64,000 bases of DNA from Leptolinea sp. HRD-7. GTDB lineage: Bacteria > Chloroflexota > Anaerolineae > Anaerolineales > Anaerolineaceae. The notes under the pieces are model-generated. The model was not told the origin of the DNA. It did not search any database and saw only the letters and a program-made list of their open reading frames with translations. The stretch is from contig AP024710.1 in the NCBI GenBank assembly GCA_024363285.1, forward strand, positions 310,001 to 374,000, written 5' to 3'. Positions 22,020 through 30,152 of this stretch are shown piece after piece. Numbering within the stretch: position 1 is the stretch's first letter; each line of letters opens with the position of its first letter. A program made the position numbers and the translations under genes.

Positions 22020-23846
22020 TTAAGAAACTGATGATATTTCTCTTGATCTATTAAAAAGAGCAATAATTCGTTCTGGGATTCTTTCGGTTGGACAAATTTC
22101 AGCCAATTTTTTACCATAAACAGGTTTGGTGCTGGGTGTATCAGAAACACTATTTTGATAGATTAAGCTCATTAAGCGATCAGAAAATTTCTTAGCCGGC
22201 TCATTGCGTAAAACCGATATATGTTCTGTAGTCCACGGTCCATTATCATGCCTAGGATAATTTTTATTCAAACAGAGACAAATTTCCTCATCAGCGAATG
22301 CATCCTCGAATTCTTTTTGACCAATTAGTATTATTGAATTATCAATAAAATCTTGAGTAAATCCCGCACTTAAAAAATCCTGATTAGATTGAGTATCACT
22401 ATCTAGAAATGCTATGGTGAGTTTTTTTCTATTTCTTCCTAATAATTTTAGGAGACCTTTTCGCCCCCCGTTTCCTTCTATATTAATTAATCGAATACCA
22501 TCTTCAATCATACTATGTCCAAATAGACGACGATAAAAAATGGGTAGAGCGTTTTCTTCCGTTGGGCCTTCGATAATAATATAACAACGTTCATAAAATA
22601 ATAATGAGTTCGTAATTCCTAATTCTGCAGCAAGATTTGTGAGGAAATCTTCTACGTCAATGTCATCACAAGTTTCAAGATAATCTACACTAGATTTACC
22701 ACATTCACATAGGCGTAATAAATTAATACTAGCGGCGGGTGCACGATCGATCATAGTTAAACTATGTGTACACAAAATTGCCTGAATCCTTGAATTTTCT
22801 TGGCCAACAATATTTTGGATTGTTTGATACATATGCCTTTGGGCTTCATAATGTAAATTAACATCTGGCTCATCATATCCACGTAATAATGGTCTAGACT
22901 GTTGCTTTCTAACAATCTCTTTATCCCAATCAAAAAAAGCCATTAGCAATCTTCTTTTTGTACCATCCCCACATTTCGATAACCAATGTAACCCTCGACC
23001 ATCATCTATAGAAAAAAGACCTGATTTTAGTCCCCCTGAGAAATCTATTGTGGGTATAAATTCTACTCGTTGAATTCTTTGATTATAGCGTTGTACATAT
23101 CCAAGTAACTCAGACACCTTATTATTTAGTTCTGTTTCAATATCCGTTTTTAAGTCCCTAAGAGATCTTATAGGTTGACGTACCCCATTTATATCTGTTT
23201 CATATATTTTAGTTTCATATACAGTTCTTAATGTTTTCATAACAATATTGGTTGGATCTTGATAATCAAGTGATCTATAGCGCTCAAATCTCGGGAGATA
23301 TTCTCGTATAACCGATTGCTGGCAAGAAACCCAATCAATATTGTATTTGGAAGTTTTTTTATACTCTACAAGTAGGTTAATCTTCTCTTCTTTATTTTGA
23401 CGTCCATTAACTTCAATTCCTAAGTTACGAATAGCAGAATCTAAATCTGAAACTTTTAATGAGGTTAAATCTTTATTAAATATATCAAAGGTATAACTTC
23501 GTCCTTTATACCAAGTAAAAGATTCCTGTTTAGTGAATTTCTTCTTTAGGTAAAAAAGACAATCTGAAGATAAATAATCCTGGGGTATATATTGATCGTT
23601 ATATGGACGAAAAACTAGAATTACTTCAATTTCGTCGGCATGTTTTTCAGAATTTGCATTACCATCATTAAAGTAATAATAGTCACTTTCTTCAGGTTGT
23701 CCTTCATTCATGATAATATCAATAAGATCCAATACAGTACTTTTACCAGCATCATTCTCGCCGATTAACACTGAAAGCTCATGAAATGGTATTTTCACAT
23801 CCTGTAAGCACCGGAAATTTTTAATTTCAATTCCAAGTAGAAGCAT
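22020..23846 (-). CDS. OLD-family ATP-dependent nuclease (AAA ATPase + TOPRIM)
   Basis: 608 residues from the ATG at 23846, which has AGGAGGG 3 nt upstream; a longer frame lacks this. The N-terminal ABC/SMC-type ATPase has KNFRCL, Walker A GENDAGKST (29-37), a GDGTKRR signature-like part near 292, Walker B/acidic GYDEPDVNLHYE near 325 and a THSLTMIDRAP switch near 360. The C-terminal TOPRIM domain has IIIEGPTEEN (about 421) and AFLDSDT (about 480), the glutamate and DxD metal ligands. Solitary OLD proteins of this kind act in phage exclusion and DNA processing; no UvrD-type helicase partner is adjacent. AT-rich relative to neighbours, suggesting transfer. Confidence 0.9.
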   Translation of the reverse strand: MLLLGIEIKNFRCLQDVKIPFHELSVLIGENDAGKSTVLDLIDIIMNEGQPEESDYYYFNDGNANSEKHADEIEVILVFRPYNDQYIPQDYLSSDCLFYLKKKFTKQESFTWYKGRSYTFDIFNKDLTSLKVSDLDSAIRNLGIEVNGRQNKEEKINLLVEYKKTSKYNIDWVSCQQSVIREYLPRFERYRSLDYQDPTNIVMKTLRTVYETKIYETDINGVRQPIRSLRDLKTDIETELNNKVSELLGYVQRYNQRIQRVEFIPTIDFSGGLKSGLFSIDDGRGLHWLSKCGDGTKRRLLMAFFDWDKEIVRKQQSRPLLRGYDEPDVNLHYEAQRHMYQTIQNIVGQENSRIQAILCTHSLTMIDRAPAASINLLRLCECGKSSVDYLETCDDIDVEDFLTNLAAELGITNSLLFYERCYIIIEGPTEENALPIFYRRLFGHSMIEDGIRLINIEGNGGRKGLLKLLGRNRKKLTIAFLDSDTQSNQDFLSAGFTQDFIDNSIILIGQKEFEDAFADEEICLCLNKNYPRHDNGPWTTEHISVLRNEPAKKFSDRLMSLIYQNSVSDTPSTKPVYGKKLAEICPTERIPERIIALFNRSREISSVS

Positions 23847-23944
23847 TATCCCTCCTATGTATTGTAAAAATAAAACCATTTTTCATTTTTATTTGTACTA
23901 TTTCAAATATAAGCTTGTTGGTTGCACTCGAGTTTGAACACATC

Positions 23945-24228: not shown

Positions 24229-24882
24229 ATGGATAGAGTCAATGCTTATATCGACGGATTCAATCTTTATCACAGTCTAAAAGATCAGGGATGGTCAAAA
24301 TATTACTGGCTGGATATCCCGTCATTGCTCCAAGGATTACTTAAGGATAATCAAGTAATCAACACTGTTTTTTATTTCACATCACCATCTGTTGAGCCTG
24401 CGAGTCTAAAACGTCAAACAACATATATTGAGGCATTAGAAAGAGTATCTCTAACAAAAAATCGTCATTTACAAGTTGTTCGAGGAAGATTTGAGAGTGA
24501 AGATGTGAAGTGCAGTGTATGTAATGATTACATAAGATGTCAAGAATGCGGCCAAATTGTGAGTTTTAATCACGAAAAAGAGACCGATGTTAATATAGCT
24601 GTTCAGATGCTTTCCGATGCCTATGAAGATGCATTCGATGTAGCTTTATTAATTACTGCTGATAGTGACCAAGTTGGAACAATAAGAACAATAAAGAAAT
24701 TCTTCTATGACACTAAGAAGGTCGGTGTAGTCTTTCCACCAAAAAGGGAATCAAAACACCTAATTAAAGTAGCAGATTTTGTTTTACATATTAGTCAAAA
24801 TGACCTTGGCAAAAATCAACTACCGGAAATCGTAGAAAAACACGATGGATACAAATTACAGCGTCCAAATACCTGGATTTAA
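24229..24882 (+). CDS. NYN-domain (PIN-like) RNase with zinc-ribbon insertion
   Basis: 217 residues. YIDGFNLYHS (D9, N12) opens the PIN-like fold; ETDVNIAVQML (D120) and LLITADSDQVG (D145, D147) supply the remaining acidic metal ligands of the LabA/DUF88 NYN family. Between them C95-x2-C98-x5-C104-x2-C107 forms a zinc-ribbon insertion, which suggests nucleic-acid contact. Probably a single-strand RNA endonuclease. It has its own strong promoter and structured leader and is divergent from the OLD nuclease gene. AT-rich like that gene. Confidence 0.85.
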   Translation: MDRVNAYIDGFNLYHSLKDQGWSKYYWLDIPSLLQGLLKDNQVINTVFYFTSPSVEPASLKRQTTYIEALERVSLTKNRHLQVVRGRFESEDVKCSVCNDYIRCQECGQIVSFNHEKETDVNIAVQMLSDAYEDAFDVALLITADSDQVGTIRTIKKFFYDTKKVGVVFPPKRESKHLIKVADFVLHISQNDLGKNQLPEIVEKHDGYKLQRPNTWI

Positions 24883-25634: not shown

Positions 25635-26186
25635 TCATTCTCCCGCCTGTATATCCATAACCCTCGCATCCACACCCTCGCCCCAACCGGGCGGATACAT
25701 CCCCATCCCCACATACCGGTGATAGCTGGACCACGCCCAATCGTCAACGCGTTCGACCAACCCGTGTTTCACCGGATTGTAATGGATGTAATCGATATGG
25801 GTGTTCAGATCGTCTTCGTCAAATAATGTGTGCTCCCAATACCGCCTTTGCCAAACGGTCTGCTCCCGGCGTTTGACGCGTGATTCGTTCCGTTCATCCC
25901 CAACGTCAACCTGACGGAGGTATTCACGGGTGAAATGGCGCTTAATTTCATTCCACCTCATGGAATAATTGACGTCACCCTCCGGAAGCTGCCAGATGGT
26001 GTGGATATGGTCCGGCATCAGGCAGATTGCGACGGTTTCGAAGGGGTGCTTTAATTGCACGTTTTTCCACGCGGTACGTAGGATTTCGCGGCTGATCGGG
26101 GATGTGAGGATAGGTTTGCGGTTGAACGTCACCAATGTGAAGAAGTAGGTTCCACCGGGTTGTTTTAGTCTGCGATAGTTGGTCAA
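25635..26186 (-). CDS. REP-associated tyrosine transposase (RAYT, IS200-like Y1 family)
   Basis: 183 residues from a TTG start with GGGGAT upstream. RRLKQPGGTYFFTLVT at the N-terminus, the HUH-like LMPDHIHTIW (H60, H62) and the YIHYNPVKHGLV motif (133-144) with the candidate catalytic tyrosine, followed by WSSYHRY, identify a RAYT. These single-copy-type enzymes cut and rejoin REP hairpins. The gene has REP palindromes on both sides, and a truncated second copy is 0.5 kb away. All catalytic motifs are present, so it may be active. Confidence 0.93.
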   Translation of the reverse strand: MTNYRRLKQPGGTYFFTLVTFNRKPILTSPISREILRTAWKNVQLKHPFETVAICLMPDHIHTIWQLPEGDVNYSMRWNEIKRHFTREYLRQVDVGDERNESRVKRREQTVWQRRYWEHTLFDEDDLNTHIDYIHYNPVKHGLVERVDDWAWSSYHRYVGMGMYPPGWGEGVDARVMDIQAGE

Positions 26187-26532: not shown

Positions 26533-26706
26533 ATGGCTCACATAATAAATACCGATACCTGCTTCAACTGCGGCGCTTGCGAAAGTCAATGCCCCGAAAG
26601 CGCGATCTCCGATATCGATGGTATAACCTTCATCAACGCGGACAAATGCGTTGATTGCGCTGCCTGTGTTGGTGCCTGCCCCAGCGATTCAATCCACCCC
26701 GCGTAA
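26533..26706 (+). CDS. Small 2[4Fe-4S] ferredoxin
   Basis: 57 residues, ATG at 26533 with a GGGGG stretch 8 nt upstream. Two classical cluster motifs: CFNCGACESQCP (first C-x2-C-x2-C-x3-CP) and CVDCAACVGACP (second), separated by about 18 residues, the layout of clostridial-type bacterial ferredoxins. Low-potential electron carrier for cytosolic oxidoreductases; supports an anaerobic or facultative lifestyle. Lies between RAYT/REP debris on both sides. Confidence 0.95.
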   Translation: MAHIINTDTCFNCGACESQCPESAISDIDGITFINADKCVDCAACVGACPSDSIHPA

Positions 26707-26718
26707 TTAATTCTTCCG

Positions 26719-26885
26719 ATCAGGCAAATGGCAACCGCGCCAAAAGGATGTTTCACTTGCACATTCTTCCACGCGGTACGTAGGATTTCGCGGCTGATCG
26801 GGAACGGCAATAGTGGTTTGCGGTTGAATGTCACCAGGGTGAAGAAGTACGTTCCACCGGGTTGTTTGAGTCTGCGAAAATTGGT
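26719..26885 (-). pseudogene. Truncated RAYT copy
   Basis: About 56 codons closely similar to the N-terminus of the RAYT at 25635-26186, from the equivalent TTG start through VAICL, then homology stops just before the catalytic HIH motif and runs into the 3' side of the ferredoxin gene. The upstream bases, including the REP (palindrome 5), match those of the intact copy. A dead fragment created by deletion or by abortive transposition. Confidence 0.88.
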
Positions 26886-26912
26886 CAAGATGTGCGATCC
26901 CACTGTGCCATT

Positions 26913-26940
26913 GATGCGCTCGAAAGCGAGCGCATCCTAC
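26913..26940. repeat. REP-like palindrome 5
   Basis: GATGCGCTC (26913-26921) and GAGCGCATC (26928-26936) with a 6-nt loop and CTAC flank, upstream of the truncated RAYT at the same distance as palindrome 3 from the intact gene. Confidence 0.85.
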
Positions 26941-26957: not shown

Positions 26958-27716
26958 CTAAAACACCATTTTTATCCCATACCCGATCAAGACGGCGAAA
27001 AGGGTGGAAAGCAGCGTTCCGATCAACACATACTCGGCAAACGGGCGTTGATCCAGCTCACGGAAGCGGGCGAAAGCCTTCGCCGCCAGCACGAACCCGA
27101 TCGAACCAATGGATCCACCCAGCACCAGCACCACCATGATGATCCGTTCCAGAATCCCGATCAACCGGCCTGCATTCAATTCCTGTGTATCTACCGGTTT
27201 CAGAAGGTATTTCTCATCCTTCGCCGGCTTTCCGGAAGGTATCAAACCGAATAGCCGGAAACATGACCGGATGAGTAAATTGACCTCGTTGGAAGCCAGC
27301 AATAACCCGAACAAAATAACAGACGCTTTTTCAACATCCGGCGGTGTGATCACAGCTAACAGGGATGAATAACCTGCCCAGCCATGCAATTGGGTTAAAA
27401 GCCGGGCGTTAAATTCCAGGCGGATCATGGGTGAAAAGAAGATGCTATATAAAATGACAAAGCACAACAGGATCACAAACCGGAACAGTTCCCTGTTTTT
27501 GATTCGCGAATCGCCGGCGATCGCCAGCAAATTAATCAGACCTATACCTCCGAGGAGCAGCCAGAAATTGGTTCCCGGTTCAAAAGCGCATGCCGCCGCA
27601 AGTGGAATGAGGAACATAATGACCCAACGATTTCGCGATATGGGCCCGTCATCCATCAGAAAGAGAAGGCGCGCCAACATCGTGACGTTCATCATATAGA
27701 CAAATGGAAGGGTCAT
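26958..27716 (-). CDS. DUF3307-type membrane protein paired with SatD
   Basis: 252 residues with about six to seven membrane helices and a cytosolic loop near 160-185. The C-terminal block RLIGILERIIMVVLVLGG, then IGFVLAAKAFARFRELDQR and AEYVLIGTLLS, matches the C-terminal part of DUF3307 proteins. Start codon overlaps the SatD stop by 4 nt (ATGA), so the two are coupled. DUF3307/SatD pairs are named after the Streptococcus sat locus; molecular function unknown. Confidence 0.75.
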   Translation of the reverse strand: MTLPFVYMMNVTMLARLLFLMDDGPISRNRWVIMFLIPLAAACAFEPGTNFWLLLGGIGLINLLAIAGDSRIKNRELFRFVILLCFVILYSIFFSPMIRLEFNARLLTQLHGWAGYSSLLAVITPPDVEKASVILFGLLLASNEVNLLIRSCFRLFGLIPSGKPAKDEKYLLKPVDTQELNAGRLIGILERIIMVVLVLGGSIGSIGFVLAAKAFARFRELDQRPFAEYVLIGTLLSTLFAVLIGYGIKMVF

Positions 27717-28342
27717 ATCAGTTCTTTATTTACCAGAATGGTTATTTCACTCAGCAAGCGGAAGATGTTCTGCAGATTCCCCTGTGAGATGGTTTTATAT
27801 ATTGCTTTATCTGTTACATGTAGCTCAGTGGCGATCGTATTAATATCCAATTGATTAAACAATGCCCGAAACGTGTGTAATCGGGTACGGTTCCAACTAT
27901 TGAATGAGTACGAAACCAGATGAAGGCTTTCCTGGATCAACGTTGAATACGGTGTATCAATACCCTCTAATGAAAACAGATAATTTGTACCTTTAAGTCG
28001 CTCAATACCATTGCGAGCGTGGTAAAAAGCCGGCCCATCCATCCCCAAAGCCTGTTCATGGTTTATTTGCGTCAGGATGCTTCCCACCCCAAACGAGAAG
28101 CGGATCTTTACAGGGTAAAGAACGGAAAGTAATTCCATGGCATCAGAAAACACATGATCGGCCCGGTTAAATACTGCCTGAAATTCGTCACCCAGGGTGA
28201 TTGTATACGGTGAGACAAGGTTCGGGTTAGTTTTTGATAATTTCTGGATAACTGACCGTAAATCCTCCTGAGTCTGCTCCCTCTGGAGAATTTGTCTCGA
28301 CGATACGATGTCTGCAATCAATACCAGATAGTTCATATTCAA
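27713..28342 (-). CDS. SatD family protein with cyclase-like palm motifs and C-terminal helix-turn-helix
   Basis: 209 residues. Recognised as SatD by YLVLIADIVSSRQ at the N-terminus and its pairing with DUF3307. The order of motifs, D11 at the end of a hydrophobic strand, GDEFQAVF (51-58) on a predicted beta hairpin, RFSFGVGS (81-88) and GPAFYHARNGIERL (103-116), parallels class III nucleotide cyclases (metal-binding D, GDxxxAxF, G.h.G and GpavnxAaR). A helix-turn-helix follows near 160-185 (IATELHVTDKAIYKTISQG). The cyclase resemblance is inference; SatD activity is not established. Followed by the membrane partner with a 4-nt overlap. Confidence 0.8.
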   Translation of the reverse strand: MNMNYLVLIADIVSSRQILQREQTQEDLRSVIQKLSKTNPNLVSPYTITLGDEFQAVFNRADHVFSDAMELLSVLYPVKIRFSFGVGSILTQINHEQALGMDGPAFYHARNGIERLKGTNYLFSLEGIDTPYSTLIQESLHLVSYSFNSWNRTRLHTFRALFNQLDINTIATELHVTDKAIYKTISQGNLQNIFRLLSEITILVNKELI

Positions 28343-28616
28343 CCAAATTGGTTTAAAACGTGATTTTCAACCATTATAGTAGAAAATCGAAATCAATGGA
28401 AATATCTCGCTGTTTTCGAAAACATTTTAGATGATCCGCCCGGGAGGCATCTTGTAGATCCATTACCCGCTTTTAAATTCATTATAGCAATATTCATGCA
28501 GTACCACAGCCGCTACTATCCCTTATCCAGGGTGAAAATGGCAGTGAAAAATTCAAACGTGGATTTTCGTTATAATCTACCCCTGAAGTCAAATAAATTA
28601 ATAAAAGGCAGGCGGC

Positions 28617-29474: not shown

Positions 29475-30152
29475 TCAAAACCCACGCTTCTGACCCACCC
29501 ACGGGGCGGGCTTGCCGGAAATATATTCCTCCACGCCCGGGCCGCCCAACGTGGATAGACGCCACAACCCGTAGATATAACTGATCACCAGAACGGCGAC
29601 CGTAACCGGCCAATCCAACAGAGTGTTCAACCAGCCCAGCGCGGTGGTGTCACCTGCCCGGTACAGCGCGATGAGGATGGCCAGGCGGGCGGCCATAAAG
29701 GCAGCCCAGATCCAGGTCACCTCGGTGTACGCCGGAAGGATGTTGTTCAACCAGTACCAGCTTATCGGCCAGGAACGCGTCAGATGGCTGCTCAATGCCG
29801 CGAGAGGTTTCTTGACGGCGATCGAGACCAGCGCAGCCAGCAGCAGAAGCGCGCCGGTAACAATGGATGGCAGGAAGAAACTCACCGCGTTTTGCGAAAA
29901 CCACGCCAACCCGGCGGAGATACCGGTCAACACCAACCCGGAGATGGCATACCCGAGGGATTCGGCGCGAACCAGCCTGACCACAGTCAGGACGGCTGCC
30001 AGTGCCAGAGCCGTCAACGCGGCAGGCAGCAACCCGGCGTAGGCATTGACCAGCGCGAACAGCAGCGGCGGGATGATGGTATCAATGGTTTTGTTCTTTC
30101 CCGAAAAAACGACCTTGAATTCGTGCAATAACTCCAAAAATTTATCTTTCAT
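29475..30152 (-). CDS. DUF3159 membrane protein
   Basis: 225 residues with about six membrane helices. TIIPPLLFALVNAYAGLLPA at the start, ALTALALAAVLTVVRLVRAE, and the later RSWPISWYWLNNILPAYTEVTW with ARLAILIALYR match DUF3159, a family related to intracellular septation/YciB-like proteins. The C-terminal tail is cytosolic with Gly/Pro. Function unknown. It is divergent from the next gene. Confidence 0.75.
   Translation of the reverse strand: MKDKFLELLHEFKVVFSGKNKTIDTIIPPLLFALVNAYAGLLPAALTALALAAVLTVVRLVRAESLGYAISGLVLTGISAGLAWFSQNAVSFFLPSIVTGALLLLAALVSIAVKKPLAALSSHLTRSWPISWYWLNNILPAYTEVTWIWAAFMAARLAILIALYRAGDTTALGWLNTLLDWPVTVAVLVISYIYGLWRLSTLGGPGVEEYISGKPAPWVGQKRGF

Follow-up and report, generated by a model that had tools for sequence, protein, structure and literature searches.

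SatD of Leptolinea sp. HRD-7, a predicted palm-domain protein that probably reads its own promoter, forms a near-obligate operon with a membrane protein

The window analyzed here is the whole 64,000-nucleotide stretch of Leptolinea sp. HRD-7 (positions 310,001 to 374,000 of contig AP024710.1). It holds a two-gene operon of satD and a membrane protein gene, with a putative operator array in front of it. The features around this operon, in window coordinates, are the following.

22020-23879, minus strand: OLD-family ATPase with TOPRIM, closest to the PADLOC models AriA and GajA
24229-24882, plus strand: NYN-domain protein, PADLOC candidate-defence model HEC-09 (E 1.6e-67)
25635-26186, minus strand: Y1/RAYT-type transposase ORF
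26586-26903, minus strand: shorter RAYT-like ORF with an N-terminus nearly identical to that of the ORF at 25635-26186
26913-26936: perfect 10-bp hairpin, between the apparently decayed RAYT copy and the satD partner
26958-27716, minus strand: satD partner, a 252-aa multi-helix membrane protein, second gene of the operon
27713-28342, minus strand: satD, encoding a palm domain (about residues 1-130), a linker helix and a C-terminal helix-turn-helix (HTH, about 152-187)
28341-28353, minus strand: putative operator site 2, AACCAATTTGGTT, 28 bp from site 1 and just upstream of the ATG at 28336
28369-28381, minus strand: core of putative operator site 1, TACTATAATGGTT; the full palindrome spans about 28362-28388 and overlaps the predicted -10
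28373-28402, minus strand: candidate satD promoter (-35 TTTCCA, -10 TATAAT), from a consensus scan only, in which such sites occur at about chance frequency
29475-30152, minus strand: DUF3159 membrane protein (E 2.8e-33), near the satD operon

The ORF at 27713-28342 encodes a SatD protein (Pfam PF16264, residues 5-120, E 1.1e-30, 107.3 bits against a cut-off of 29). Its TTG at 28342 falls within operator site 2, so the ATG at 28336 is probably the true start, and true residue numbers would then be two lower; we keep the numbering of the preliminary description of this DNA, which counts from the TTG. Being shorter, with a nearly identical N-terminus, the ORF at 26586-26903 is likely a decayed RAYT copy. 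The OLD ATPase apparently has neither an AriB nor a GajB partner beside it. A literature search returned nothing on SatD biochemistry or on SatD operators.

The AlphaFold (AF2) model of SatD, based on an 88-sequence alignment, has a mean pLDDT of 97.2 and the element order E4-12 H21-38 E42-48 E53-58 H64-75 E80-88 H104-117 E123-126, which is that of a ferredoxin-like palm (b1-a1-b2-b3-a2-b4-a3-b5). When this model was compared with the PDB by Foldseek, all 26 matches at E <= 0.001 were adenylyl or guanylyl cyclases, the best being 3et6 (E 6.9e-5); the cUMP synthase PycC (7r65) is found at E 1e-3 and GTP cyclohydrolase III (2qv6) at E 2e-3. VIA-align places GTP cyclohydrolase III as the best structural match (Z 12.6, 2.6 A over 113 aa), and gives Z 11.2 for the GGDEF protein SiaD, Z 11.1 for the mCpol OptS of Panoptes (2.5 A over 105 aa) and Z 10.9 for Cmr2. 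Profile-profile comparison by hhalign is weak, with probabilities of 12% for cyclases and 26% for GGDEF; a proof of homology from sequence was dropped for this reason, and the case for the fold rests on the structure model. The register that hhalign returned is correct (VLIADI/VLFADI and LGDEFQAVF/LGDAVMAWF). We conclude from the modelled fold that SatD is a member of the nucleotide-cyclase/palm superfamily.

The putative metal site was assessed in 111 SatD homologues from many phyla, including haloarchaeal, actinobacterial, fusobacterial and alphaproteobacterial members. Residues G51, D52, Q55 and G103 are invariant, and D11 (108/110), E53 (106/111) and R110 (108/111) nearly so. In the model, D11 is found at the end of strand 1 and D52 in the hairpin of strands 2 and 3, the two metal-binding places of the superfamily (PMC2904730 for a general statement), and KpOptS of Panoptes uses D6 and D57 at the equivalent positions (PMC12657218). 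The preliminary description had proposed a palm domain on the strength of D11 in LIADIVSSR, GDEFQAVF at 51-58, FGVGS at 84-88 and GPAFYHAR at 103-110, with an HTH behind it, and this part of it agrees well with our analysis: the motifs lie where they were placed, the palm is predicted by the model and its structural matches, the two aspartates are kept (D11 in 108 of 110 homologues, D52 in all 111), and the HTH is modelled at about 152-187 and matches those of the LuxR, resolvase and sigma-4 types. A PDB search with the sequence of SatD returned only HTHs, aligned to the C-terminus. By sequence register, SatD has I48 in place of the Lys that selects the base in class III cyclases and F106 in place of their transition-state Asn, while the Arg four residues after that Asn is kept as R110. 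The reaction could therefore be a different one, or activity could have been lost. There is no match to Pfam Guanylate_cyc (PF00211) at E<=1 and none to Pfam GGDEF (PF00990), whose signature here reads L50-G-D-E-F, with Leu for the first Gly. With these replacements, SatD falls within the superfamily and in none of its named families. An enzymatic activity is predicted and likely. The SatD-like ORF of locus L012 has Gly in place of D11; in L012 and L199 the region of the strand-1 aspartate is changed, and these may be decaying or repurposed copies.

SatD and its membrane partner form a near-obligate two-gene operon. In the window the partner gene begins inside the satD stop codon (a 4-bp ATGA overlap), and a partner profile search found the gene in 81 of 92 satD loci, often with the same 4-bp overlap. 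A survey of 145 genomes from a single class gave 52 partner matches, of which 46 adjoin SatD, and three partners in genomes with no called SatD are each preceded by a diverged SatD (GDGWQ). Conversely, of 14 seemingly lone SatDs that we inspected, 13 are followed directly by a minimal partner (104-112 aa) that the profile search had missed, and one, L199, is a highly divergent SatD-like ORF with no visible partner. The gene is rare on plasmids (8 plasmid records). Pairing also holds for four loci on plasmids, one each of an archaeon, Arthrobacter, Fusobacterium and Agrobacterium. No SatD relatives were found in viral contigs or in the phage collection.

Partners range from about 105 to 330 aa and have in common a C-terminal core with the motif GxxER...K...R...E. 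In the window this core comprises G183, G187, E190, R191, K213, R217, E228, G233 and S237; among 85 sequences, G187, E190, R191, K213, G233 and S237 are present in all, R217 in 83 and E/D228 in 84. It had been suggested that the protein beside SatD in the window is a DUF3307 protein. The pairing with a membrane protein proved stronger than claimed, and the family assignment did not hold for the window, since the protein at 26958-27716 has no Pfam family match, DUF3307 (PF11750) included. Other SatD partners do match DUF3307 (e.g., L004, E 4e-19); the Pfam model spans only the N-terminal half of some of these proteins, and the window partner has just the C-terminal core in common with them. Its structure model (pLDDT 92.6) matches no usable solved fold, the best Foldseek E being 0.77 and VIA giving Z 6.9 on partial helix bundles.

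Upstream of satD, in many phyla, lie tandem arrays of a palindrome, AACY-N5-RGTT. We counted 142 such sites in 34.7 kb of satD-upstream DNA, whereas 959 kb of control DNA from the flanks held 57, so that the sites are 69-fold enriched in front of satD. Successive sites are 28 bp apart in 31 cases and 29 bp apart in 37. The sequences of flanks and spacers show no relationship, which argues for functional conservation rather than common DNA ancestry. The strict pattern AACYANNNTRGTT, twice in tandem, has no match in the window's own genome because site 1 deviates from it, and we therefore used a profile (R1) built from 44 two-site arrays and run on 18 genomes. In all 18 the top match is at satD; the window's own genome has just one strong match, at the satD promoter (E 1.2e-8), and at E < 0.01 a single match away from satD occurs in the whole set. 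SatD is thus without a sizeable regulon. The match away from satD (L207, about 2567-2610; genome G009, contig C76; E 5e-6) is flanked by OsmC-like and RarA-like genes and consists of one intact site and one partial site. SatD subfamilies with minimal partners have different palindromes in the same place, with 41 exact 7-bp inverted repeats upstream of satD against 5 expected. The tandem palindromes upstream of L187-L206, such as TTTCAT...ATGAAA or TTGCAT...TGCATCAA, apparently keep the operator layout and use another recognition code.

The base just outside each operator half-site differs between loci, and this variation points to SatD as the protein that reads the array. When mutual information was computed between this flanking base and every SatD column, residue 179, which sits in the recognition helix of the HTH, scored z 13.8 and the next column 5.7. 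Arg at this position is paired with a flanking G in 12 of 12 loci; Lys mostly accompanies C, Gln A or C, and Val mostly T. Mapped onto a tree built from only the palm part, R179 changes at least five times, and close pairs switch together, as in two loci both titled Vreelandella utahensis, L030 (Q179, A) versus L037 (R179, G). This covariation is strong evidence, at the level of sequence, that SatD itself binds the operators at its own promoter, and almost only there. We infer that it represses rather than activates its operon, because site 1 overlaps the predicted -10 box. Together, the operator arrays and the residue-base covariation indicate that SatD is probably a dedicated autoregulator, and that its tail is more than the DNA-binding-like segment it was first taken for.

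The question of what the palm domain does is best approached through three loci in which a protein of the PycTM family (PADLOC, Pfam PF18967) adjoins satD. The distance is 14 bp in L036 and 19 bp in L003, both with PycTM on the upstream side, and 64 bp in L008, with PycTM downstream. In L008 PycTM takes the place of the usual partner, whose gene is broken in L036 and lacks its DUF3307 half in L003. A search of all ORFs of the satD loci with the PycTM profile matched only these three and L018, which is a duplicate of L008 (L006 of L041 and L007 of L035 are likewise duplicates). No PycC is visible near satD in L003 and L036, and the L008 locus ends upstream. PycTM disrupts membranes on binding cyclic pyrimidines made by a class-III-like cyclase (PMC11224242), and its adjacency in three loci is the best hint of a nucleotide signal made, or controlled, by SatD. 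The earlier proposal of a messenger synthase with a membrane effector is plausible in this light; its identification of the window partner as a DUF3307 protein is not borne out by Pfam. The whole genome G000 has 31 GGDEF-domain matches and no class III cyclase match. A hint at the phenotype comes from a transposon meta-analysis of Streptococcus pyogenes, whose SatD is a distant member relative to that of the window: satD, carried by 178 of 249 genomes, is the only accessory gene in the top essentiality quarter (PMC11323703). A gene that restrains a harmful partner would be expected to show this pattern, accessory yet essential where present.

We conclude that SatD is best explained as an autoregulated palm protein that converts an NTP and controls a membrane effector, a reading that we favor with modest confidence. 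D11 and D52 of SatD would hold NTP and Mg2+, and the protein would most likely turn the NTP into a small nucleotide product, while its HTH, seated on the tandem palindromic operators, would repress the operon. Output would pass through the conserved charged core of the partner, which SatD or its product would restrain or gate. A change in nucleotide state, through stress, acid or possibly infection, could then, in a single step, alter how far the operators are occupied and which state the membrane protein adopts. Catalysis by SatD, and action of its product on the partner, are the steps of this scheme that we infer. A more specific form of it, in which SatD is both a messenger synthase and the regulator of its own operon and the partner represents a new class of nucleotide-gated membrane effector, is a tentative proposal that we regard as possible rather than probable. 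If true, it would constitute a third palm-synthase/membrane-effector signaling system beside Pycsar and Panoptes, distributed over many bacterial phyla and the haloarchaea, with gene control and messenger synthesis on one chain. It would add to the prokaryotic nucleotide-signaling repertoire a palm enzyme able to recognize the promoter of its own gene. Both SatD and DUF3307 are common, functionally orphan families. With a predicted fold, a metal site, an operator whose specificity apparently switches by one residue and one base, and a near-obligate membrane partner, SatD becomes a signaling module that can be tested.

The SatD pair resembles Panoptes (OptS mCpol and the 2TM-beta protein OptE) in being a two-gene operon with the membrane protein second, and in having a small palm protein in which a first Asp closes beta1 and a second sits in the beta2-beta3 hairpin (D6/D57 in KpOptS, D11/D52 in SatD). 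The Panoptes effector is released when the nucleotide is lost, an arrangement that would fit the essentiality of satD. SatD differs from that system in its C-terminal HTH and its own operator array, in its partner, an unrelated protein of several helices that lacks the 2TM-beta fold, and in having here no link to CBASS or CRISPR. Likeness to Pycsar lies in the class-III-like palm fold and in the PycTM genes just described; the usual SatD partner, however, is a protein other than PycTM, SatD lacks the Lys for base selection and the catalytic Asn of class III, and the HTH with its autoregulation is new. PADLOC returned no match, to Pycsar, Panoptes or any other system, for either protein of the window pair. 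With GGDEF cyclases, SatD would have in common the hairpin signature (LGDEF versus GGDEF) and a GPAF[YH]xAR segment that appears to be in register with the GGDEF helix xxALYxAK; it differs from them in the Leu, in the lack of a Pfam GGDEF match and in carrying an HTH on the same chain.

A palm joined to an HTH can, by analogy, be a non-catalytic sensor, as in the fragment of the Rv2242 regulator that stands at rank 41 of the Foldseek list for SatD, and this would count against catalysis. SatD could be a non-enzymatic sensor-repressor, whose palm binds nucleotide and Mg2+ as a ligand that sets operator binding, with the partner being a toxin or transporter under dosage control. The apparent recognition of its own operators and almost nothing else, the absence of the class III base-selecting and transition-state residues and the overlap of satD with the partner gene all accord with such a role. 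The last of these, an overlapping two-gene operon whose first product recognizes operators almost only at its own promoter, recalls toxin-antitoxin operons, as does an accessory satD that scores as essential in S. pyogenes; SatD is unlike toxin-antitoxin regulators in having a cyclase fold with an intact metal site. We think a purely sensory SatD rather unlikely, since near-invariance of D11, D52 and R110 over 111 sequences is unusual for a ligand-only palm, and since PycTM, which is gated by cyclic nucleotides in Pycsar, fills the partner slot in L008.

SatD might otherwise be a metabolic or housekeeping enzyme, GTP-cyclohydrolase-III-like or modifying some other NTP, autoregulated and serving acid or envelope tolerance, with the partner as transporter or scaffold. 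GTP cyclohydrolase III (MJ0145) is the best structural match to SatD residues 1-130, at the Z of 12.6 given above; several clades have stable, ordinary neighborhoods (e.g., PdxJ and TIGR02757-like genes in Ignavibacteria); and a passage of PMC11323703 cites work that links the sat locus of Streptococcus mutans to acid tolerance. This role appears improbable, as SatD is patchy (8 of 101 relatives), no biosynthetic neighbor is conserved and PycTM substitutes for the partner. Unlike GTP cyclohydrolase III, SatD has a single palm domain with an HTH and no metabolic context.

A defence role for SatD as such is possible, and the preliminary description had argued for one from its neighbors. The OLD, NYN and RAYT genes are real in the window; in our neighborhood survey they did not recur beside SatD in other genomes. 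The genes around 80 satD loci differ by taxon and are for the most part ordinary; when 112 of these flanking genes were scanned with PADLOC, the defence matches were scattered and mostly generic, so that no conserved defence neighborhood was found at this scale. The three neighbors thus appear incidental, and the argument drawn from them is unsupported. A dedicated anti-phage system that includes OLD, NYN and RAYT is accordingly very improbable, notwithstanding the AriA/GajA-like ATPase and the candidate-defence NYN protein (HEC-09) 3-6 kb from satD, as these genes are not found beside SatD elsewhere and the 112 flanking genes give few defence matches.

One plasmid locus may be mentioned separately. 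On the pAt plasmid of Agrobacterium (L156), SatD and a minimal partner of 145 aa lie beside antitoxin, nucleotidyltransferase-HEPN and HipA-type genes.
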